NCBI RefSeq assembly: GCF_000577275.2
Contig: NZ_HG916852.1
Span: 747,001 to 811,000 of the forward strand
Direction: 5' to 3'
Length of the DNA stretch: 64,000 nucleotides
Source: Rhizobium favelukesii
GTDB lineage: Bacteria; Pseudomonadota; Alphaproteobacteria; Rhizobiales; Rhizobiaceae
Part shown: one piece after another, positions 25,604 to 43,482 of the stretch
How the letters are laid out: the number at the start of each line of letters is the position of its first letter
Position numbering within the stretch: position 1 is the stretch's first letter
The notes under the pieces: generated by a model
Told to the model about the DNA's origin: nothing
The model's input: only the letters and a program-made list of their open reading frames with translations
Database searches by the model: none
Program-made: the position numbers and the translations under genes

Positions 25604-27529
25604 TTAGTCGAAGCTGAAGAACGGCGTTGTACGGGGTGGCAGCGCCGGAACGTCGATGTGGTCCGGTTCCAGCCCCATCTTCGCGCGGTCCACCATGATT
25701 TCGTAGGCCCTTTCGAGGTGCAGCGTGAAGCGCTCGGCATCGAAGAGGGGCATGATGCCGGCGTTCCGTCTGATGCGCTGCTTGTATTCAGCAATGCGCT
25801 CGGGACTGTTCGCAAGCGCGACCGCCGTGTCCTCGTAGGCCTTGATGTCGGCGGCCACCAGTTCCGGCAAGCCTATAGCGTTGAGCAGACTTTCGCTGAC
25901 GCGAGAGGCAAAATTGGTGCCCTGGACGGTCAGAACCGGCAGGCCGCCCCAGAGCTGCTCGGAGGTCGTTGTGTGCCCGTTGACCGGAAACGTGTCGATG
26001 CCAAGATCGGCCATCTGTTGGCGATCGATGTGCTCTTCGTAGGACACGCGTGGGCAGAAGATCACTCGATCTGAATCGATCCCCCTCTTGTTGATGTAGT
26101 TGAGCAAGTTGGTCTGGGTGTGGGGCGACGAAAGCATCAGCCAAAGCACGCCGTTTTGCGCGCGCTTGAGGATGTTGCACCAGACGTCCAGTATCTCTGT
26201 GTTGATTTTGCGGTTCGCATTGAACGAGGCAAAGACGAACGCCTCCTCCGGCAATCCAACCTGCGTGCGGGTCGTCGGCGTCGGCTTCGGACGATTTGCG
26301 GGGTCGTTGGGTTGGTAGCTCTCCGGCATGCGCACCAGCTTCTCGTGGTAGTGTGCTTCGCTGCTCTTCGGCAGCACGAACCGATCGCCGATGGCGTAAT
26401 CAAGGTCGACGTCGGTCACGCTGCCGGGGAAACCAAGCCAGGCTGCCTGCAGCGGAGCGCCGCCATAGTTCAGTATTCTGGATCGACCGCCGAATGTGTG
26501 TCCCTTTAGGTCGACCAGGATGTCGATCTGCCGCTCCCGGACTGCGTTCGCGGCTTCCTCGTCGGTCATGTCTCGAACGATGCACACGTCGCCCCATTGC
26601 GAGCGATCGACAGTGCCGGCCTCATGTTCCAGGTACTTCTCCTCGGTATGGCAGAAGAGCGTTATTTCGAATTTGTCGCGGTCGTGCAGCTCCAGAATAC
26701 GGCGCAGCAGCTTCATGGTTGCGTGTCCGGCCCAGAAATCGGACGAAAGATATCCGATACGGATCTTCTTGCTCCAGGCGTGGGGAACGGCTCTTCGTCG
26801 GGCTGCTGCTTCCTTCAATGGAAGAGACGGATTGTGAGAAGCACGCGCATTGAGCGCTTCGTCGCTGCACCAGTGAAGGTTGTAGAAGGGATTGTCGCGC
26901 TCCAGGACGCTGAGGTCGCCTTTGTCGAGCATCCGTTGTACCGGCAGAAACTCCCTGGCGACGAGGTCGAAGTCGCAGACCTCGCGCGCGAAGACCAGCT
27001 TGAGGAGCCGGAGCGGCATGATGTCGGGAAATTTCTTGAAGAGATTGTGGACAAGCGTCGCGTTCGTCGCGTCCAGAATGTCGTCACTGAGGAGTTGCAC
27101 CGCAAGGCGGGCATGGTCGGGATTGCTGCTCTCGGAAATCACCTTGCGGTAAGGGCTCACGAGATCCTTCCGGCCTTGCCTGATGTGGATAGAGGCCAGA
27201 ACGTAGGCAAGATCGGCGTCCGAGCGGGCAAGTGTCATGACGCGCAAGGCCTGGAGCAAGGCTTGCTCTTCGTCGCCGCAGGCAAAATACAGAAGCGCGG
27301 CTTCGCGCGTGTAGGTCGACTCCTTGTTGCTGTCGCGTTCGCCGGCAAGCGCATACGCGCTTGCCGCTTCCGATTTGAAGCCCAACTTGAGAAGGTTTTT
27401 GGCCAGGAGAACGTAGGTCTTGACGTCTTGCTGCGTGTCGATGAGTTTGTTCAGGACTTCAAGCGACTTGAGATATTGCCCCTTTTGATAGTCCTTCGAT
27501 GCCGCCGCAAACGAAATATTGGTATTCAA
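25604..27529 (-). CDS. TPR/O-GlcNAc transferase-like glycosyltransferase (SPINDLY, GT41), candidate flagellin glycosyltransferase
   Basis: Intact protein of 641 residues. The first 230 residues are helical TPR-like repeats (YQKGQYLKSLEVLNKLI at 14-30). The C-terminal two-thirds carry the OGT signature blocks: IGYLSSDFWAGHA (258-270), DLKGHTFGGR (340-349), WLGFPGS (364-370), FNANRKI with the sugar-nucleotide Lys441, and DTFPVNGHTTTSEQLWGG (512-529). Such enzymes transfer GlcNAc or related sugars to Ser/Thr. It is head-to-head with the first flagellin gene, so flagellin is the likely acceptor; that is inference. There is no signal peptide, so it is cytoplasmic. An in-frame GGAG site precedes ATG 27529. 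It is flanked by decayed IS elements, suggesting acquisition. Confidence 0.88.
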   Translation of the reverse strand: MNTNISFAAASKDYQKGQYLKSLEVLNKLIDTQQDVKTYVLLAKNLLKLGFKSEAASAYALAGERDSNKESTYTREAALLYFACGDEEQALLQALRVMTLARSDADLAYVLASIHIRQGRKDLVSPYRKVISESSNPDHARLAVQLLSDDILDATNATLVHNLFKKFPDIMPLRLLKLVFAREVCDFDLVAREFLPVQRMLDKGDLSVLERDNPFYNLHWCSDEALNARASHNPSLPLKEAAARRRAVPHAWSKKIRIGYLSSDFWAGHATMKLLRRILELHDRDKFEITLFCHTEEKYLEHEAGTVDRSQWGDVCIVRDMTDEEAANAVRERQIDILVDLKGHTFGGRSRILNYGGAPLQAAWLGFPGSVTDVDLDYAIGDRFVLPKSSEAHYHEKLVRMPESYQPNDPANRPKPTPTTRTQVGLPEEAFVFASFNANRKINTEILDVWCNILKRAQNGVLWLMLSSPHTQTNLLNYINKRGIDSDRVIFCPRVSYEEHIDRQQMADLGIDTFPVNGHTTTSEQLWGGLPVLTVQGTNFASRVSESLLNAIGLPELVAADIKAYEDTAVALANSPERIAEYKQRIRRNAGIMPLFDAERFTLHLERAYEIMVDRAKMGLEPDHIDVPALPPRTTPFFSFD

Positions 27530-27620: not shown

Positions 27621-27882
27621 CCAAGCTTGCTCGAAGCCGGTGTGCGCTCCTGCGACAAGGCGTTCGAAGAATGTTTGGAGACTGTTAACCACCGGCTCCA
27701 TGCGACGCCGTTTCCCCAGCCGTTTTAATGAGTTGGCAATGAATGGGTGCGAGATTGCCTCTCGACATGACGGGTTTGGTTGCTCAAGAGAACGGCGCCG
27801 AGTGGCATGAAGCTGGTCCGTCATCGCCGGTATTGAAGTCCGGTATGTCCTCCTTTGGTATTTTGTTTTTGGGGACAGACTT
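27621..27882 (+). promoter_or_regulatory. flaA upstream region and structured leader
   Basis: Upstream of flaA lies a TTAACC half-site at about 27686. The leader block shared with the other flagellin genes begins at GGCATGA (27804-27810). It contains a hairpin GCCGG (27826-27830) / CCGGT (27840-27844) and then TGTCCTC (27846-27852), which can pair with GGGGACA (27871-27877) just before the start codon at 27883. The second pairing would cover the ribosome binding site. The promoter itself is not identified. Confidence 0.55.
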
Positions 27883-28773
27883 ATGACAAGCATTAACACC
27901 AACAATTCCGCAATGGCGGCACTCCAGACGCTGCGTAACGTCAACAAGGGCTTGAGTGACACGCAGAATGCCGTTTCGTCTGGCCTGCGCGTCGGCAAGG
28001 CTTCCGACAACGCCGCCTACTGGTCGATCGCAACGACGATGAAGTCCGACAACAAGGCGCTTTCGGCTGTGTCCGACGCCCTCGGCATGGGTGCTGCCAA
28101 GCTCGACACGGCCTACACCGCTGTCGACAGCGCAATCGACGTCGTCGGCGAAATCAAGGCAAAGCTGGTTGCAGCCAGCGAAGCCGGCGTCGACAAGACC
28201 AAGCTTCAGGACGAAATCACGCAGCTGCAGTCGCAGCTCTACAGCGTCGCTCAGTCCGCTTCGTTCAACGGCGAAAACTGGGTCAACAACGCCGGCGGCA
28301 CGGTCAGCGTCGTTTCGTCCTTCGTCCGCGGCACCGGCGGCGCAGTCTCCATCAAGACCACCGACTACACCCTCGGCGCCACCAACACGCTGTTCGACGG
28401 CTCCACGACAGGCGGCATCCTCGGTGCTAACGGTGCGAGCTCGGGCAGCTCCATCTACGGCTTCACGATCGGCTCGAGCACGACCCAGGGCGACATCGAC
28501 AACCTGCTGACGGACGTCGAGAGCGCTCTGAAGAACATGACGACCCTCGGTTCGCAGCTCGGTTCGCTCCAGACCCGCGTCGACATCCAGACCGACTTTG
28601 TCTCCTCGCTCAGCGACTCGATCGACTCCGGTATCGGCCGCCTCGTCGACGCCGACATGGAGGAAGAGTCCTCCAAGCTCAGCGCCCTGCAGACCCAGCA
28701 GCAGCTGGCGATCCAGTCGCTGTCGATCGCGAACTCTTCTTCGCAGAACATCCTCTCGCTGTTCCGCGGCTGA
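27883..28773 (+). CDS. flaA: Flagellin (first of four)
   Basis: Filament subunit of 296 residues. The conserved N-terminal D0/D1 region is TNNSAMAALQTLRNVNKGLS through NAAYWSIATTMKSDNKALSA, and the C-terminal D0 region is LQTQQQLAIQSLSIANSSSQ with LFRG at the end. The variable centre is short and rich in Gly, Ser and Thr, including candidate O-glycosylation stretches such as GASSGSSIYGF. It is about 94% identical to the next gene (18 differences in 296 by my reading). Letter names are by order in the cluster and may not match other species. Confidence 0.95.
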   Translation: MTSINTNNSAMAALQTLRNVNKGLSDTQNAVSSGLRVGKASDNAAYWSIATTMKSDNKALSAVSDALGMGAAKLDTAYTAVDSAIDVVGEIKAKLVAASEAGVDKTKLQDEITQLQSQLYSVAQSASFNGENWVNNAGGTVSVVSSFVRGTGGAVSIKTTDYTLGATNTLFDGSTTGGILGANGASSGSSIYGFTIGSSTTQGDIDNLLTDVESALKNMTTLGSQLGSLQTRVDIQTDFVSSLSDSIDSGIGRLVDADMEEESSKLSALQTQQQLAIQSLSIANSSSQNILSLFRG

Positions 28774-28800
28774 TAGCCGTCACCAGCCATCTGAGAAGCG

Positions 28801-28836
28801 ATTTACGGCCGGGTTTTCCCGGCCGTAAATGTTTTA
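28801..28836 (+). terminator. Rho-independent terminator of flaA
   Basis: ATTTACGGCCGGG (28801-28813), loop TTTT, CCCGGCCGTAAAT (28818-28830), then GTTTTAA. A perfect 13-bp stem ends the flaA transcript and makes flaA a single-gene unit. Confidence 0.92.
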
Positions 28837-28848
28837 ATCGCAAGTTAA
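28834..28848. promoter_or_regulatory. CtrA-type box upstream of flaB
   Basis: TTAA (28834-28837), 7 bases, TTAA (28845-28848): full match to the CtrA consensus spacing. It is 203 bases before the flaB start and abuts the flaA terminator, so part of the match may be the terminator's T-run. Confidence 0.35.
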
Positions 28849-28978
28849 TAAGGCGAGCTAACAGAAGGATATTTTTAACTATTTTTCTTTTTAGAGTTCA
28901 GGGTTTCTTAACCATGATGCTGTCTTATGTGCCTATCGAAACGGCGAGTTGATTGAGCACAGAAAAATCGGTCAACAG

Positions 28979-29050
28979 GCATGACGCTGACCGCCGTTCC
29001 CGGTAGTCCGGAATGTCCCTTCCTACACATTCTGCCAAAGGGGCAATTAA
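28979..29050 (+). promoter_or_regulatory. flaB structured leader with anti-Shine-Dalgarno segment
   Basis: GGCATGA (28979-28985), hairpin TTCCCGG (28997-29003) / CCGGAA (29008-29013), then TGTCCCTT (29014-29021), a spacer of 16, and AAGGGGCA (29038-29045) before ATG 29051. The last two segments can form 8 consecutive pairs (one G-U) that would hide the ribosome binding site. The block is shared with flaA and flaC. Confidence 0.55.
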
Positions 29051-29941
29051 ATGACCAGCATTCTGACCAACAACTCCGCAATGGCAGCTCTCCAGACGCT
29101 GCGTAACGTCAACAGCAATCTGTCGGATACGCAGAACGCCGTTTCGTCTGGTCTGCGCGTCGGCAAGGCTTCCGACAACGCTGCTTACTGGTCGATCGCC
29201 ACCACGATGAAGTCGGACAACAAGGCGCTTTCGGCCGTTTCCGACGCCCTCGGCATGGGCGCCGCCAAGCTCGACACGGCTTACACGGCCGTCGATAGCG
29301 CCATCGACATCGTCGGCGACATCAAGGCAAAGCTCGTTGCAGCCAGCGAAGCTGGCGTCGACAAGTCGAAGCTGCAGGACGAAATCACGCAGCTGCAGGC
29401 ACAGCTTTACAGCGTTGCTCAGTCCGCTTCGTTCAACGGCGAAAACTGGGTCAACAACGTCGGCGGCACTGTCAGCGTCGTTTCGTCCTTCGTCCGCGGC
29501 ACCGGCGGTGTGGTCTCCATTAAGACCACCGACTATTCGCTCGGCGCCACCAACACGCTGTTCGACGGCTCCACGACAGGCGGCATCCTCGGCGCTAACG
29601 GCGCCAGCTCGGGCAGCTCCATCTACGGCTTCACGATCGGCTCCAGCACGACCCAGGGCGACGTCGACAACCTACTGACGGACGTCGAAACCGCTCTGAC
29701 GAGCATGACGACCCTCGGCTCGCAGCTCGGCTCGCTCCAGCAGCGCGTCGACATCCAGAGCGACTTCGTCACTTCGCTCAGCGACTCGATCGACTCCGGT
29801 ATCGGCCGTCTCGTCGACGCCGACATGGAAGAAGAGTCCTCCAAGCTCAGCGCCCTGCAGACCCAGCAGCAGCTGGCGATCCAGTCGCTGTCGATCGCAA
29901 ACTCCTCGTCGCAGAACATCCTCTCGCTGTTCCGCAGCTAA
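29051..29941 (+). CDS. flaB: Flagellin (second of four)
   Basis: Filament subunit of 296 residues, nearly identical to the first flagellin. Differences are scattered, e.g. NSNLSD for NKGLSD, DIVGDIKA for DVVGEIKA, and LFRS for LFRG at the end. Both terminal D0/D1 regions are complete. A strong site AAGGGG precedes the ATG at 7-base spacing but may be masked by the leader. It is separated from flanking flagellins by strong terminators, so it is its own transcription unit. Confidence 0.95.
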   Translation: MTSILTNNSAMAALQTLRNVNSNLSDTQNAVSSGLRVGKASDNAAYWSIATTMKSDNKALSAVSDALGMGAAKLDTAYTAVDSAIDIVGDIKAKLVAASEAGVDKSKLQDEITQLQAQLYSVAQSASFNGENWVNNVGGTVSVVSSFVRGTGGVVSIKTTDYSLGATNTLFDGSTTGGILGANGASSGSSIYGFTIGSSTTQGDVDNLLTDVETALTSMTTLGSQLGSLQQRVDIQSDFVTSLSDSIDSGIGRLVDADMEEESSKLSALQTQQQLAIQSLSIANSSSQNILSLFRS

Positions 29942-29987
29942 TAGCAGGAGCGCCTCCGGGCGTCTCGAACAGAAAGATCGCCAATGG

Positions 29988-30016
29988 AAAGCCGCGCTTC
30001 CGAGCGCGGCTTTTTT
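29988..30016 (+). terminator. Rho-independent terminator of flaB
   Basis: AAAGCCGCGC (29988-29997), 6-base loop, GCGCGGC (30004-30010), T6 (30011-30016). Strong GC stem followed by a clean T-run. Confidence 0.92.
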
Positions 30017-30024
30017 AATGCCTG

Positions 30025-30040
30025 TTAACTCCGCGTTAAC
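30025..30040. promoter_or_regulatory. CtrA-type box upstream of the third flagellin
   Basis: TTAA-CTCCGCG-TTAAC (30025-30040), a full consensus match. A second pair of TTAA with 6-base spacing is at 30077-30090. The start codon is at 30183. Confidence 0.45.
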
Positions 30041-30103
30041 CAAATTCATGTCTTCTGCCGTCAACGAAACGGTATGTTAACCAAGCTTAAGAAGCGGTTA
30101 GCG

Positions 30104-30182
30104 GGCATGATGCTGATTGCCGTTCCCGGTGGTGGACCGGAATGTCCCTTTTCAAGATTTGCCATCAAGGGGCGATAATTTC
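30104..30182 (+). promoter_or_regulatory. Third flagellin structured leader with anti-Shine-Dalgarno segment
   Basis: GGCATGA (30104-30110), hairpin TTCCCGG (30123-30129) / CCGGAA (30137-30142) with a 7-base loop (4 in flaB), TGTCCCTT (30143-30150), spacer of 16 and AAGGGGCG (30167-30174) before ATG 30183. The spacer has the same length as in flaB but a different sequence. Confidence 0.55.
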
Positions 30183-31091
30183 ATGACCAGCATTTTGACG
30201 AACGTCGCGGCAATGTCCGCCCTCCAGACCCTCCGCAGCATCAATGGCAATCTGGAAGACACCCAGAACCGTGTCTCGTCCGGTTACCGTGTTGCCGAAG
30301 CCAAGGACAATGCTGCCTATTGGTCGATTGCGACGACCATGCGTTCGGACAACAAGGCTCTTTCGGCTGTCTCCGACGCGCTCGGTCTGGGTGCGGCAAA
30401 GGTCGATACCGCCTATTCGGCCATGGACAGCGCCATCGATATCGTCAGCGAGATCAAGGCAAAGATCGTGGCCGCGACGGAAAAAGGCGTGGACAAGACC
30501 AAGATTCAGGACGAAATTGGACAGCTTCAGCAGCAGTTGTTGAGCGTAGCTCAGTCCGCTTCCTTTTCCGGCGAGAACTGGGTGGCAGGCAATTCCACTA
30601 AAAGCGTCGTCTCCTCGTTCGTGCGCGATGCGAACGGCCAGGTTTCCGTTCAGACGACACAGTATGTGCTTGATGACTCCACGAGCGGCAACGTTCTGTT
30701 CGGTATGACGACCACGGGAGCGATCGATACATCGACGGGTATCATAGGGACGTCGAGCGGCAGCGTCGGCTCGATCTACAGCATGGACATCACCAGCTTC
30801 AGCTCCAGCGACATCGACCTTGCGCTGACGACCGTCGAATCAGGCCTCAGTGCCCTGACAAAGGCGGCCTCGCAGCTCGGCTCGATCTCAACCCGCATCG
30901 ACCTGCAGGAAAGCTTCGTTTCCAACCTCAGCGATTCGATCGACTCGGGTGTCGGGCGCCTTGTTGACGCTGACATGGAAGAGGAATCGAGCAAACTAAC
31001 GGCCTTGCAGACGCAACAACAGCTGGCAATCCAATCGCTGTCGATCGCGAATTCCAGCGCGCAGAACGTTCTCACGCTCTTCAAGAACTAA
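30183..31091 (+). CDS. flaC: Flagellin (third of four)
   Basis: Filament subunit of 302 residues. ATG 30183 gives MTSILTNVAAMSALQTLRSI; the frame is open 22 codons further upstream, but that runs through the leader. D0/D1 ends are conserved (NAAYWSIATTMRSDNKALSA; LQTQQQLAIQSLSIANSSAQ), while the centre differs from the first two (SVQTTQYVLDDSTSGNVLFG, rich in Ser/Thr). The C-terminus is LTLFKN. It probably makes a minor or differently placed filament component. The letter is by order only. Confidence 0.94.
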   Translation: MTSILTNVAAMSALQTLRSINGNLEDTQNRVSSGYRVAEAKDNAAYWSIATTMRSDNKALSAVSDALGLGAAKVDTAYSAMDSAIDIVSEIKAKIVAATEKGVDKTKIQDEIGQLQQQLLSVAQSASFSGENWVAGNSTKSVVSSFVRDANGQVSVQTTQYVLDDSTSGNVLFGMTTTGAIDTSTGIIGTSSGSVGSIYSMDITSFSSSDIDLALTTVESGLSALTKAASQLGSISTRIDLQESFVSNLSDSIDSGVGRLVDADMEEESSKLTALQTQQQLAIQSLSIANSSAQNVLTLFKN

Positions 31092-31119
31092 GCCGCCCAG
31101 CAGCATCCGAAGGAGATGG

Positions 31120-31156
31120 AAAGCCGTGTCTTTGACGCGGCTTTCTCTTTGTTTTT
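31120..31156 (+). terminator. Rho-independent terminator of the third flagellin gene
   Basis: AAAGCCGTGTC (31120-31130), loop TTT, GACGCGGCTTT (31134-31144), with one G-U pair, then CTCTTTGTTTTT. Confidence 0.88.
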
Positions 31157-31228: not shown

Positions 31229-31357
31229 TTAACTTCCCTTAACAGTTGATTTGTTTTTAGCGACAAACCGGGCCTGGGGGACCAGCCGGGGGCATGACGC
31301 CAGGTCAGTCGCTGCCGGTTGCCGGCCTGTCCCGTTTCCCTACTCAGAGCCAGAAAA
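31229..31357 (+). promoter_or_regulatory. Fourth flagellin upstream region and diverged leader
   Basis: TTAA-N6-TTAAC at 31229-31243 is a CtrA-like pair with one base less than consensus. GGCATGA is at 31291-31297, a perfect hairpin GCCGG (31314-31318) / CCGGC (31322-31326) with loop TTG follows, and then TGTCCC (31328-31333). Unlike the other three leaders, the region before ATG 31358 has no GGGG site complementary to TGTCCC and only a weak ribosome binding site. Confidence 0.4.
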
Positions 31358-32323
31358 ATGACATACAAAATTACCAGCTCGGCACAGGTAAACGCCCTCG
31401 CGGCGCTGCGCATCATCAACAAGGACGTCGCAACGGTTCAACAGCAGGTTTCGTCAGGCTATCGTGTCGAAACGGCTGCCGACGATGCGACCTACTGGTC
31501 CTATGCAAGTGTCATGCGCTCGGACAGCAGCTCTTTGCAAAACATTCACGACGCGCTTGGCGTCGGCGCATCGAAGGTCGATACCGCCTATACGTCGATG
31601 GAAAGCCTGATCGACCAACTCGGCGAGATCCGCAAGACCCTCGTGACGGCGCAGGAAGCCGGGGTCGACAAGACGAAGCTCAACACCACGCTCACCGAGC
31701 TGAAGGGGCAACTGCAGACGACCGTCCAGGCGACGAACTTTGCCGGCGAGAATTGGCTGCTTAACCGCGACACGACGCTTCCGACATCGCGCTCCGTGAT
31801 CGGCGGTTTCGCGCGCGGTACGAACGGCGAATACCAAGCGCAAACAATTGATTTCCCGGCCGACCAGACCGTCATGATCGACACGACGGACGCCAATCGC
31901 GGACTTCTCACCAAGACCGTCGACGCGAATGCGCTTAATGCGGACGGCACCTCGACGGCACGCGACTACTATCTGCTCAACGCCGGATCGACTTCGCCCG
32001 CCAGCGGGACGGAGATAAAGCTCGACAGCAACACGACCCCCGCGCAGTTGAAGGACATGCTGGCAGTGGTCGATTCCGTATTGTCGCAGCTGACGACGAC
32101 GGCGGCCGGCCTCGGCACGATGAGCGCGCGCATCAGCGATCGCGTTGCCTACACCGCGGATATGTCTGACTTGATCGACAAGGGTGTCGGCGCGCTCGTT
32201 GACACCGACATGGACGAAGCGTCGACCCTCCAGAAGGCGTTGCAGACGCAACAGCAGATGGGTGTTCAGGCGATCTCTATCCTGAACACGGCTGCCAGCA
32301 AAGTGCTGATCCTGCTGCAATAG
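31358..32323 (+). CDS. flaD: Flagellin (fourth of four, divergent)
   Basis: Flagellin of 321 residues, the most divergent of the set. It starts MTYKITSSAQVNALAALRII, keeps QQQVSSGYRVETAADDATYW and ends LQTQQQMGVQAISILNTAAS-KVLILLQ. The variable centre (about 130-230) is unrelated to that of the other three. ATG 31358 is chosen because upstream codons have no flagellin similarity. It is probably a minor filament component. No strong terminator follows; the next gene begins 91 bases on. Confidence 0.93.
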   Translation: MTYKITSSAQVNALAALRIINKDVATVQQQVSSGYRVETAADDATYWSYASVMRSDSSSLQNIHDALGVGASKVDTAYTSMESLIDQLGEIRKTLVTAQEAGVDKTKLNTTLTELKGQLQTTVQATNFAGENWLLNRDTTLPTSRSVIGGFARGTNGEYQAQTIDFPADQTVMIDTTDANRGLLTKTVDANALNADGTSTARDYYLLNAGSTSPASGTEIKLDSNTTPAQLKDMLAVVDSVLSQLTTTAAGLGTMSARISDRVAYTADMSDLIDKGVGALVDTDMDEASTLQKALQTQQQMGVQAISILNTAASKVLILLQ

Positions 32324-41530: not shown

Positions 41531-42652
41531 ATGAAAAGTTCATTTATTTCTAGTTCAGCCATTCAGAACGCGATGCGATTGACGATCCGCCAGTCGCAGA
41601 AGCAATTGGTCAGCGCTTCTCTCGAAGCAACGACGGGCGTTTACGCCGACATCGGCGCCTCCCTGGGTTCTGGCGCAGCCAAGAGTGTGAACTTCACGTC
41701 CGAGGTCAGCCGCATCAAGGCTCTCAAGGGCAGCAATTCCGTCGTATCGGCACGTCTCGAAGCGTCGCAGCTCGGCCTCAACAGCATGAAGAAGGCCGGC
41801 GATGCGCTGGTCTCCAAGTTGACAGCGCTTCAGGGCAGTCAGGACAAGACCAGCATCACGGTGGCGATGCAGTCTGCCGGCGACGCGCTGTCGCAGCTCA
41901 TGGATACGGGCAATTCCATGCTCAACGGCGAGTACCTGTTCTCCGGTATCAACACCGATGTGCAACCGCTCACCAACCAGCAGAATGCCGCGACGACCGC
42001 CATTCAGACGAACCTCACGGCCTATGCAAGCGGCCTCGGCAAACCAGTGAGTTCTCTGACCGGCGCCGAGATGGGTAAGTTCATTACTGACTTCGTTGAG
42101 CCGATGTTCTCGCAGGACACGTTCAACGGCACCTCCACGCCGATCGCGTTCCCGCCACCTGGCGCCCCGACCCCGCTTGCGCCTGCGGCCTATGTGACGC
42201 CGCCGGCCTGGAGCGACTGGTCGGCCGCATCGAACCAGAACATGACGAGCCGTATCAGTAACTCGGAAGTCGTAACATCGTCGACCAACGCCAACTCGGA
42301 CGGCATGCGCTACTTCGCGCTCGCTTCGATCACCGTTTCGGCGCTGGCCAGCCAGAATGTCAGCGCTGACGCATTGAGCACGGTTACCTCCAAGGCGATC
42401 GGCTATGCGGCGCAGGCAACGACCGGCATCGTGACGCAGGCAAGCCAGCTCGGTCTTTCGCAGGAGCGCGTCGAGAAGGCCAACGATGCCCTCGATGCAC
42501 AATCAAGCATCATTCAGAACAAGCTCGTCGATCTCCAGGGCGTCGATACCTCGGAAGCATCGACACTCGTCAACACGCTCCAGACGCAGCTGGAGACGGC
42601 CTACACCATCGTATCGAAAATCCAGCAGTTGAGTCTCGTGAACTACCTTTGA
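41531..42652 (+). CDS. flgL: FlgL, hook-filament junction protein 3 (HAP3)
   Basis: FlgL is the second junction protein. The protein has 373 residues, flagellin-like at both ends: IQNAMRLTIRQSQKQLVSAS at the start and TLQTQLETAYTIVSKIQQLS at the end. It contains LMDTGNSMLNGEYLFSGINT, a block characteristic of FlgL. The gap to flgK is 3 bases. Confidence 0.94.
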   Translation: MKSSFISSSAIQNAMRLTIRQSQKQLVSASLEATTGVYADIGASLGSGAAKSVNFTSEVSRIKALKGSNSVVSARLEASQLGLNSMKKAGDALVSKLTALQGSQDKTSITVAMQSAGDALSQLMDTGNSMLNGEYLFSGINTDVQPLTNQQNAATTAIQTNLTAYASGLGKPVSSLTGAEMGKFITDFVEPMFSQDTFNGTSTPIAFPPPGAPTPLAPAAYVTPPAWSDWSAASNQNMTSRISNSEVVTSSTNANSDGMRYFALASITVSALASQNVSADALSTVTSKAIGYAAQATTGIVTQASQLGLSQERVEKANDALDAQSSIIQNKLVDLQGVDTSEASTLVNTLQTQLETAYTIVSKIQQLSLVNYL

Positions 42653-42688: not shown

Positions 42689-43036
42689 ATGTATCAGTTC
42701 TCTTACTCCGAGGTCATGGAGGACTCGGTGGCCGATGCGAAGGAGCGGGAACGTCAAGTTCTCGACCGGTCCATCGAGCTGCTGTCGATTGCGCGGGACA
42801 AAGAGAAATACAGCCGGGAAGCCATTGATGCATTGTTCTACACCCGGCGTGTTTGGGTGAGTTTCATCGAGGATCTCAAGCATCCGGACAACCAGCTTGA
42901 GATCCAGCTGCGGGCCAACCTCATCTCCATCGCGATCTGGATCTTGAAGGAGTGCGATCGGATCAGGCGCCGGCAGTCGACGAACTACCAAGGCATTATC
43001 GACGTTACCACCATCATCAGGGATGGACTAAAATGA
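42689..43036 (+). CDS. flaF: FlaF, flagellin synthesis regulator
   Basis: FlaF promotes flagellin translation or secretion and opposes FlbT in alphaproteobacteria. The protein has 115 residues and is helical, with [20 protein letters not shown] at the start and [20 protein letters not shown] near the end. It overlaps flbT in ATGA (43033-43036), the usual pairing. Confidence 0.93.
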
Positions 43037-43482
43037 AAAGCACACTTCGTATCTCGCTAAAAGCCGGGGAAAAGATCTTCATCAACGGTGCGGTCTTGCG
43101 CGTCGATCGCAAGGTCGCGCTGGAATTCCTGAACGATGTAACGTTCCTTCTCGAAAACCACGTTCTCCAGCCGGAAGAGGCGACGACGCCTCTGCGCCAG
43201 CTCTATTTCATTGCGCAGATGATCCTCATCAATCCTGAGGGCAAGGAGCAATCGACGGCGATGTTCCGCAAGTCGGTCACCATGCTGCTGACCTGCTTCA
43301 AGAACGAGGAAGTTCTGGCCGAGCTGAAGCGCATCGATGGTCTCGTTTCGACCGGACGTGCATTCGACGCCCTGAAGGCGATCCGCGGTCTGTATGCGAT
43401 CGAAGACAGCATACTCAACAACCACGAAATGCCGCCGACGATGGTCGAGCAGATTCGTAAGGAGATCGCACCATGGCGGTAA
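43033..43482 (+). CDS. flbT: FlbT, flagellin mRNA-binding repressor
   Basis: In Caulobacter FlbT binds the 5' untranslated region of flagellin mRNA and promotes its decay until the hook is finished. Here it has 149 residues from ATG 43033 ([20 protein letters not shown]), with the family block [20 protein letters not shown]. Its natural targets in this genome are likely to be the structured flagellin leaders at 27804, 28979 and 30104; that link is inference. It overlaps flgD by 10 bases. Confidence 0.94.

Follow-up and report, generated by a model that had tools for sequence, protein, structure and literature searches.

The window analysed here is a stretch of 64,000 nucleotides (nt) of Rhizobium favelukesii (contig NZ_HG916852.1, positions 747,001 to 811,000). 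It carries four consecutive flagellin genes, flaA (27883..28773), flaB (29051..29941), flaC (30183..31091, start ATG at 30183) and the divergent last paralog flaD (31358..32323), all on the forward strand, as are the leader features described below. The source genome (7.57 Mb) is Rhizobium-like, and its best-matching named flagellin locus is that of Rhizobium sp. BK399. We provide evidence that the leaders of flaA, flaB and flaC share a structured RNA element of about 120 nt that recurs in many Rhizobiales, and that ends in a helix likely to mask the Shine-Dalgarno (SD) region. An original prediction had described a GGCATGA block common to these leaders, followed by a CCGG/CCGG hairpin and a segment complementary to the ribosome binding site. 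That observation is borne out, and the structure is more extensive and on firmer ground than in the first reading, which missed both that the GGCATGA block is a hairpin arm and that two further helices lie upstream of it.

From its 5' end, the element consists of a helix, PB, that encloses a variable hairpin (PA) and, directly downstream of it, a mini-hairpin (P0), forming a three-way junction; a further hairpin (P1) follows, and then an anti-SD helix (P2). GGCATGA is the 5' arm of P0, which has a near-invariant AUGAN loop, and starts at 27804 (flaA), 28978 (flaB), 30104 (flaC) and 31291 (flaD), as read directly and by script. In flaA, the PB strand AUGACGG (27767..27773) is a perfect 7-base-pair (bp) complement of CCGUCAU (27818..27824). 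The enclosed PA (27774..27803, arms GUUUGGU and GCCGAGU) lies within a match at 27763-27885 to the covariance model R2 defined below, and P0 (GGC-AUGAA-GCU, 27804..27814) was returned unprompted by RNAalifold from a structure-naive alignment. P1 (27826..27844) has a 9-nt loop between its CCGG arms, and the anti-SD arm UGUCCUC (27846..27852; TGTCCTC in DNA) is complementary to GGGGACA, which includes the SD (27871..27877; duplex -10.6 kcal/mol). In flaB, PB pairs AACGGCG (28940..28946) with CGCCGUU (28992..28998) around PA (GUUGAUU/GGUCAAC, 28948..28976) and P0 (GGC-AUGAC-GCU, 28978..28988); P1 is CCGG-UAGU-CCGG (29000..29011), and the arm UGUCCCUU (29014..29021; TGTCCCTT in DNA) pairs with AAGGGGCA, which includes the SD (29038..29045; -12.1 kcal/mol). 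In flaC, PB is AACGG (30068..30072) with CCGUU (30120..30124), PA GUUAACC/GGUUAGC (30076..30102), P0 GGC-AUGAU-GCU (30104..30114) and P1 a hairpin with a 7-nt loop (30126..30140); the same arm, UGUCCCUU in RNA and TGTCCCTT in DNA (30143..30150), pairs with AAGGGGC at the SD (30167..30173; -11.1 kcal/mol). Reading and script thus bore out the predicted blocks, hairpin loops of 9, 4 and 7 nt, changed flaA partners and 16-nt P2 spacers of flaB and flaC. The minimum-free-energy fold of flaB with the full 5' boundary shows all five helices, and that of flaC is nearly the consensus, with P0 closing one extra pair. The flaA GGGGACA has a pairing probability of 0.9-1.0 in a fold without PB and PA; the fold that includes them differs. 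Among three distant leaders folded, L097 and L119 give the consensus and L177 differs.

Computational comparison shows that the junction is conserved well beyond this genome. Flagellin leaders were taken from 77 named related loci and the window (230 leaders, 225 distinct), and near-identical sequences were collapsed at 80% identity or above (alignments A1 and A2) or at 85% or above (a wide set); two leaders with mis-set starts (L048|357 and L074|7192) were dropped, as was L063, without CAT[GC]A in range, before A2. The block [GT]CAT[GC]A-N-GC occurs in 212 of the 225 distinct leaders, beyond what chance would give. In the 182 parsable by the CCGG pattern, the hairpin begins 18-23 nt from CATGA and has a loop of 3-15 nt, and the anti-SD lies 24-49 nt from the ATG. 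Applied to 61 representatives aligned without regard to structure, RNAalifold reveals P0 as a 3-bp hairpin, GGC-AUGAN-GCY, whose outer pair is GC in 24, GU in 18, AU in 6 and UG in 4. P0 is formed in 96.6% of cells across 60 leaders, and double changes occupy 13 cells, where shuffled data give 3.9 +/- 2.1. Its loop is AUGAN in 117/122, and in certain Agrobacterium-type fourth flagellins (L076, L079) this loop is retained on a rewritten stem.

The two upstream helices carry the covariation. PA was recognised in distant members as a hairpin abutting P0 whose arms differ wholly between leaders, and PB was recognised from the alignment, where the strand before PA complements the P0-P1 linker; examples elsewhere are ACGACAGG/CCUGUUGU, AUGGCAGG/CCUGCCAU, UGCGAGAGG/CCUCUCGUG and UAUACAGGA/UCCUGUAUG. 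As leaders were collected with R1, a covariance model of P0-P1-P2 that spans 3 nt before P0 up to the ATG, the 5' strand of PB and almost all of PA count as out-of-sample sequence. Across 310 leaders, the PB duplex averages -12.48 kcal/mol with its own partner and -10.47 +/- 0.10 when permuted, and a PB helix of at least 6 bp forms in 277 leaders, against a mean of 200.7 and a maximum of 208 in 20 swaps. Independent contrasts (70 pairs) favour the native PB partner 39 times and the swap 23 times (sign p 0.03, Wilcoxon p 0.003). PA was recovered by folding in 265 of the same 310 leaders; over all 310, its duplex averages -9.84 kcal/mol against -7.72 +/- 0.12 permuted, and in 63 phylogenetically independent pairs, the native PA was better in 36 and the swap in 21 (sign p 0.03, Wilcoxon p 1.3e-4). 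A further alignment, A4, was made up of 35 leaders from the 60 in A2 and 62 from the 63 wide representatives. Of 97 leaders, 62 have a PA stem of at least 6 bp directly adjoining P0, where 100 half-swaps gave a mean of 27.2 and a maximum of 40, and 84 have one of at least 5 bp, the search picking the best stem.

Alignments of the whole element point the same way. In a structure-naive alignment of 27 leaders (A8), 90.7% of 778 cells are paired and at most 47.0% when the strands are slid; there are 84 double-change cells against 26.2 +/- 6.4, located at 17 pairs against 8.0 +/- 1.5 in shuffles, and RNAalifold recovers, without guidance, 27 pairs that make up the junction, P1 and P2. These rows were picked for clean alignment of PA and PB, a selection that favours structure, and the permutation tests on 310 leaders are therefore less biased. 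We also applied an R-scape-like, tree-based G-test written for this analysis (threshold E < 0.05) to 130 distinct elements in an alignment made with the model and fitted to the structure; alignment A11 draws on 79 selected sources, from which R2 matches with E <= 1e-4 were taken, and is model-fitted. Among 6,670 pairs tested, nine covary significantly, four in PB and five in PA, with none outside the structure, which upholds the original claim of a selected RNA structure common to the leaders. The P0, P1-core and P2 pairs give no covariation signal in the 130 elements, being near-invariant though paired in most rows; the outermost P1 pair varies (paired in 81/129 rows, E 0.59), and P1 is rewritten in a few lineages. 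The wider alignment thus supports covariation in PB and PA but gives nothing significant in P1 or P2, and the hairpin and masking helix that had been called covarying show rewriting of P1 in those few lineages and a few compensated changes in P2, neither statistically significant.

The complementarity of P2 is also evident computationally. Six of its seven pairs, the outermost excepted, are formed in 114/124 to 126/129 rows, and in the 27 leaders the outermost forms in 13/27 and the next six in 24 to 27. In leaders cut at P0, the predicted energy needed to open the SD has a median of 5.35 kcal/mol natively against 3.85 with the arm scrambled, the native value being higher in 226 of 293 leaders; scrambling an upstream segment instead leaves it at 5.63 kcal/mol, not lowered. 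A few rewritten arms still pair (UGUCUUU with AAAGAC, UGUUCCU with AGGAACA), and many leaders outside the window's genus have the arms AUGUCCC and GGGACAU, with complementarity that reaches past the SD. We therefore regard P2 as a likely masking helix, short of proof.

Computed duplex energies also separate the last paralog from the other three. The flaD leader has P1 (GCCGG-UUG-CCGGC, 31314..31326) without an effective P2 downstream; its PA (31268-31289) and P0 (31291-31301) lie inside a candidate PB (AGCGAC, 31259-31264, with GUCGCU, 31308-31313) that was identified by eye and is not the longest helix in the scan. Its own P2 duplex amounts to -2.2 kcal/mol, in keeping with the prediction that this fourth leader keeps GGCATGA and the hairpin (loop TTG) and has lost the masking. 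Among Rhizobiaceae, 38 flaD-like leaders have medians of -2.5 kcal/mol for P2, -3.0 for the SD and 2.45 for SD opening; in the other 188, the class medians are about -11.1, -5.7 and 6.2 to 8.9 (p ~1e-17, with leaders that are not independent and were classed by best window match; leaders without a recognisable P2 arm were scored 0). The weakly masked gene is usually last in four-gene clusters. By exception, L060 and L067 have an equally weak third gene, and the last gene of L009, L015, L021 and L055 retains -6 to -8 kcal/mol. Genome G124 has five clustered flagellins, every one with an R1 match of at least 42 bits; thus, the unmasked paralog is not universal, and the pattern may fail outside the Rhizobiaceae.

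The element is widespread in the order. R1 matches at E <= 0.01 in 89 of 297 Rhizobiales genomes, and R2, which extends over 118 positions and 29 pairs and was trained on 27 leaders (none from the window's genus, one from its family), does so in 81 of the 297, representing 36 of 122 genera. By our own count, 15 families have an R2 match below 1e-6. In a class-level sample of 210 genomes, R2 found nothing above its chance ceiling of 25.9 bits except in the source genome, and neither model gave a convincing match outside Rhizobiales in the genomes sampled. In the source genome, R2 identifies flaA (56.0 bits, 5.8e-12), flaB (52.6 bits, 5.1e-11), flaC (47.5 bits, 1.4e-9) and a fourth locus (C59:743342-743453, L209 1501-1612; 45.6 bits, 4.7e-9) about 3.5 kb before the window start; flaD scores 26.5 bits, at the chance ceiling, and the next score is 16.1 bits. 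The open reading frame (ORF) at the model's ATG is a flagellin in 91 of 94 R1 matches; the remaining three are two methyl-accepting chemotaxis protein (MCP) genes and one ORF, truncated by the end of its contig, whose beginning resembles a flagellin. That count omits the window's genus and 14 loci already known to be without a flagellin start there, namely five protoglobin-MCP leaders, one MCP leader, L131 and seven low-scoring loci. The element mainly, but not exclusively, precedes flagellins. As a separate observation, L131 1001-1082 has a 38.9-bit R1 match resembling the leaders of the outlying flagellins L017, L020 and L024, and the ORF scan found no flagellin at its ATG.

The other contexts computed from these matches are genes of chemotaxis and signalling. 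The fourth locus in the source genome lies 84 nt upstream of a protoglobin-MCP open frame; its leader has clear P0 and P1 and readable PB and PA, without the flagellin-type masking helix. As the window opens with cheA-, cheW-, cheR- and cheB-like genes, the che operon probably begins with this leader. Four more genomes (L127-L130) have R2 matches, of 38.7 to 46.1 bits, ahead of protoglobin-MCP genes, and further MCP leaders score 64.5 (L132), 42.3 (L134), 35.1 (L133), 30.5 (L243) and 25.1 bits (L244, chance level). Additionally, matches lie before a cheA-like gene (L242, 43.3 bits), a PilZ gene (L246 2153-2274, reverse strand, 34.9 bits) and two GGDEF-EAL genes (L247 2147-2231, reverse strand, 32.6 bits; L248 101-218, 28.1 bits). 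The PilZ and GGDEF-EAL cases, which are few and serve as leads only, suggest a link to cyclic di-GMP (c-di-GMP) control. In 14 non-flagellin members, 86.9% of cells pair against 70.2 +/- 1.3 in shuffled data, in a model-fitted alignment.

We consider it probable that the element is a translational control leader of flaA, flaB and flaC, in which PB, PA, P0 and P1 serve as a sensor and P2 as an expression platform, read by a trans-acting factor. The three transcripts would begin with the structured RNA, and the junction with P1 would form a sensor or docking domain for that factor. The arm (A)UGUCC(C) would pair with the SD region, so that the default state blocks ribosome loading, and binding or release of the factor would shift P2, allowing flagellin to be translated only when wanted. 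As PB and PA, upstream of GGCATGA, covary as RNA helices, we infer, indirectly, that the transcript should start further upstream still, which tells against a start downstream of that block; transcription start site data exist for Sinorhizobium meliloti (PMC3616915, in the portion consulted). With its weak SD and no mask, flaD should be translated independently of the switch.

Several results weigh against this reading, most of them at P2. Sixty-one independent contrasts gave 15 in which the native pairing was better, 18 in which the swap was better and 28 ties, with no significant covariation; the split was 9 to 9 where cores differ and 13 to 8 where both pair. All P2 pairs have E >= 50 in the tree-based test on the 130 elements, and the z of -4.9 from a naive permutation ignores relatedness. 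In the 55 leaders with a minority arm, the permutation was not significant (283 of 5,000), and mean pairing of these arms was -7.46 with majority SDs and -6.15 with their own. The intact arm gains less than 0.5 kcal/mol in 103 of 293 leaders, including flaB and flaC of the window (about 0.2), a full P2 is missing from most non-flagellin members (five of the seven pairs are gapped in 6 to 10 of 14 rows), and the flaD-like leaders have lost it. For the junction, the tree-based test on the structure-naive 27-row alignment returned a single significant pair (19-45, in PA). The minimum-free-energy fold of flaA with PB and PA is a different structure, and those of flaD and the chemoreceptor leader also depart from the consensus; folding z-scores are ordinary (flaA 0.45, flaC -0.78, flaD 0.23, chemoreceptor leader 0.37), flaB (-2.30) being the sole unusual one among the five leaders of the source genome. 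Thus, the original claim that the structure hides the start site stands in part: sequestration is predicted for the flaA, flaB and flaC sites and an open site for flaD, but P2 covariation is weak after correction for relatedness.

FlbT of Caulobacter reportedly acts on the 5' untranslated regions (UTRs) of flagellin transcripts, and by analogy we put it forward, tentatively, as the best-placed candidate for the factor that reads the element. The flbT gene (43033..43482, forward strand, ATG 43033, 149 amino acids; PF07378, 3.6e-42) lies where it had been predicted and adjoins flaF (42689..43036, forward strand; PF07309, 7.5e-34); homologs of 149 amino acids match its product end to end. FlbT is present in 65 of the 66 genomes with a best R1 E value below 1e-4 (compared by eye), the exception being a genome 86% complete, and in four genomes with two FlbT matches (G035, G143, G253 and G236) one of these is about 12-13 kb away from the flagellins that carry the element. 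Against this candidate, FlbT also occurs in 210 of the 297 sampled genomes overall, which makes co-occurrence a weak test, and chemotaxis, PilZ and GGDEF-EAL genes, none of which FlbT is to our knowledge known to control, carry the element too. Fold comparison with an AlphaFold model of FlbT gave no informative match. The sections consulted of two papers say that FlbT binding promotes degradation of its mRNA targets and that FlbT acts with the flagellin paralog FljJ (PMC7591256, PMC4347634); the latter, in those sections, calls the mechanism unresolved.

Comparison with catalogued RNAs suggests that the element is undescribed. A search of 4,227 families (Rfam 15, which includes the known c-di-GMP riboswitch families) returned nothing at the element, either in the window or in those members that were searched, and cmscan at E <= 0.5 over 14 loci, including MCP, cheA-like, PilZ and GGDEF-EAL leaders, gave four matches to unrelated families, away from the element. 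We found no account of it in the open-access literature searched, in sources partly consulted; most subscription papers on Caulobacter, Brucella and S. meliloti flagellins fall outside that search. As the fold matches no catalogued family, it seems to be a control element for bacterial swimming that is not described in Rfam 15 or that literature. The FlbT-responsive fljK leader of Caulobacter crescentus is similar in being a flagellin leader in a genome with FlbT and FlaF and in having post-transcriptional control proposed at its 5' UTR; in contrast, a three-way junction is absent from the parts of its descriptions consulted, and the element has no convincing match beyond Rhizobiales, in a genome sample that may not include Caulobacter. 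RF01736 (flg-Rhizobiales) is likewise a structured Rhizobiales RNA, with three stem-loops near flagellar genes (PMC3765529, in the part consulted), but at one locus read (L121 1501-1643) it extends over the start of a rod or hook gene of the FlgE/F/G type, and it occupies different loci where both are present in one genome (for example, G035, G143 and G253). Its model has no match in the window, the source genome or 20 distant element members, yet works elsewhere (69/295 genomes at E <= 0.01, nine over the cut-off); we also observed many sub-threshold matches of RF01736 in other families. Leaders that control translation through an anti-SD helix, both protein-sensing leaders and translational riboswitches, share the order of a sensor fold followed by an SD-pairing helix, but the present fold matches none of them in Rfam 15.

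The contexts, which include protoglobin-MCP genes neighbouring che genes, and the compact junction, with its near-invariant P0 loop and P1 stem, would also suit a small-molecule riboswitch aptamer sensing a motility signal, for which c-di-GMP is the obvious guess. As generally understood, the c-di-GMP riboswitches GEMM-I and GEMM-II have a similar regulon (flagella, chemotaxis, GGDEF/EAL and PilZ) and 5' UTR position, and the flagellin leaders carry the SD-masking platform that a riboswitch would need, though it is predicted and its support is mixed. However, GEMM architecture differs, no Rfam family matches, and the PilZ and GGDEF-EAL members amount to three loci at 28-35 bits against the 25.9-bit ceiling; we judge a riboswitch unlikely. 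A protein reader other than FlbT alone, such as a flagellin-FlbT co-repressor complex or another RNA-binding protein, or a role mainly in setting mRNA stability, seems to us rather doubtful. The degradation of FlbT targets and the partnership with FljJ would fit it; FljJ is reported to repress translation of other flagellins with FlbT (PMC7591256, in the part consulted, citing Ardissone 2020), and on that analogy we advance the hypothesis that the unmasked, divergent FlaD is the counterpart of FljJ; the five flagellins of G124, each with its R1 match, indicate that such an unmasked paralog is not universal.

The absence of significant P2 covariation under phylogenetic control means that conservation of the SD and anti-SD could have another cause, with the junction real, P2 a by-product of UGUCC and GGGAC conserved for other reasons, and no translational role. 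The finding that minority arms pair with majority SDs at least as well as with their own would agree with this; complementarity extending past the SD, rewritten arms that still pair, and the joint loss of mask and strong SD in flaD argue against it, and we hold it distinctly unlikely. That the blocks are instead promoter or operator DNA (CtrA or Rem sites, or a sigma element) draws on a TTAACC-like sequence just upstream of many leaders and on the fla promoters of S. meliloti being CtrA targets (PMC4433202, PMC3616915, in the parts consulted). The TTAACC/GGTTAAC repeat is, however, partly the PA hairpin itself in flaB- and flaC-type leaders, PB and PA covary with G-U pairs included, P0 uses a G-U pair (GGC/GCU), the P1 loop is free to vary in length, and the junction is recovered in some single-sequence folds, which makes a DNA element highly improbable. 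Translational control through P2 remains our preferred reading, and it might extend to a broader proposal that we consider somewhat unlikely: an undescribed Rhizobiales class of RNA sensor, with one aptamer and a common ligand (a second messenger such as c-di-GMP, or FlbT acting regulon-wide as an RNA-binding protein), would coordinate flagellins, chemoreceptors, che operons, PilZ proteins and c-di-GMP enzymes, the flagellins adding an SD mask and the unmasked paralog serving as pilot or co-repressor.

Other features of the locus are reported as side observations. By eye, strong hairpins resembling intrinsic terminators lie 3' of flaA (28800-28835), flaB (29990-30018) and flaC (31115-31150), where low-score Rfam matches (IS128, ncS025 and AaHKsRNA41) overlap them; given these hairpins, each flagellin gene may have a separate transcript. 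The divergent neighbour of flaA is a Glyco_transf_41 (O-GlcNAc-transferase-like) gene (25604-27529, reverse strand), a candidate flagellin glycosyltransferase for which we suggest comparison with Caulobacter FlmG. Immediately before flaF and flbT, an additional protein (41531-42652) has flagellin N and C domains; going by gene order, we take it to be probably FlgL.

A covarying RNA with exact helix boundaries makes flagellin control of the FlbT type directly testable, and raises the questions of which helix is read and by what, and of whether filament synthesis is coupled through a single RNA to the genes of chemotaxis and c-di-GMP. If its ligand is a small molecule, the element would be a new riboswitch class; if it is FlbT, the element would supply the missing binding site and mechanism. 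Motility of rhizobia is important in colonising roots and in nodulation.

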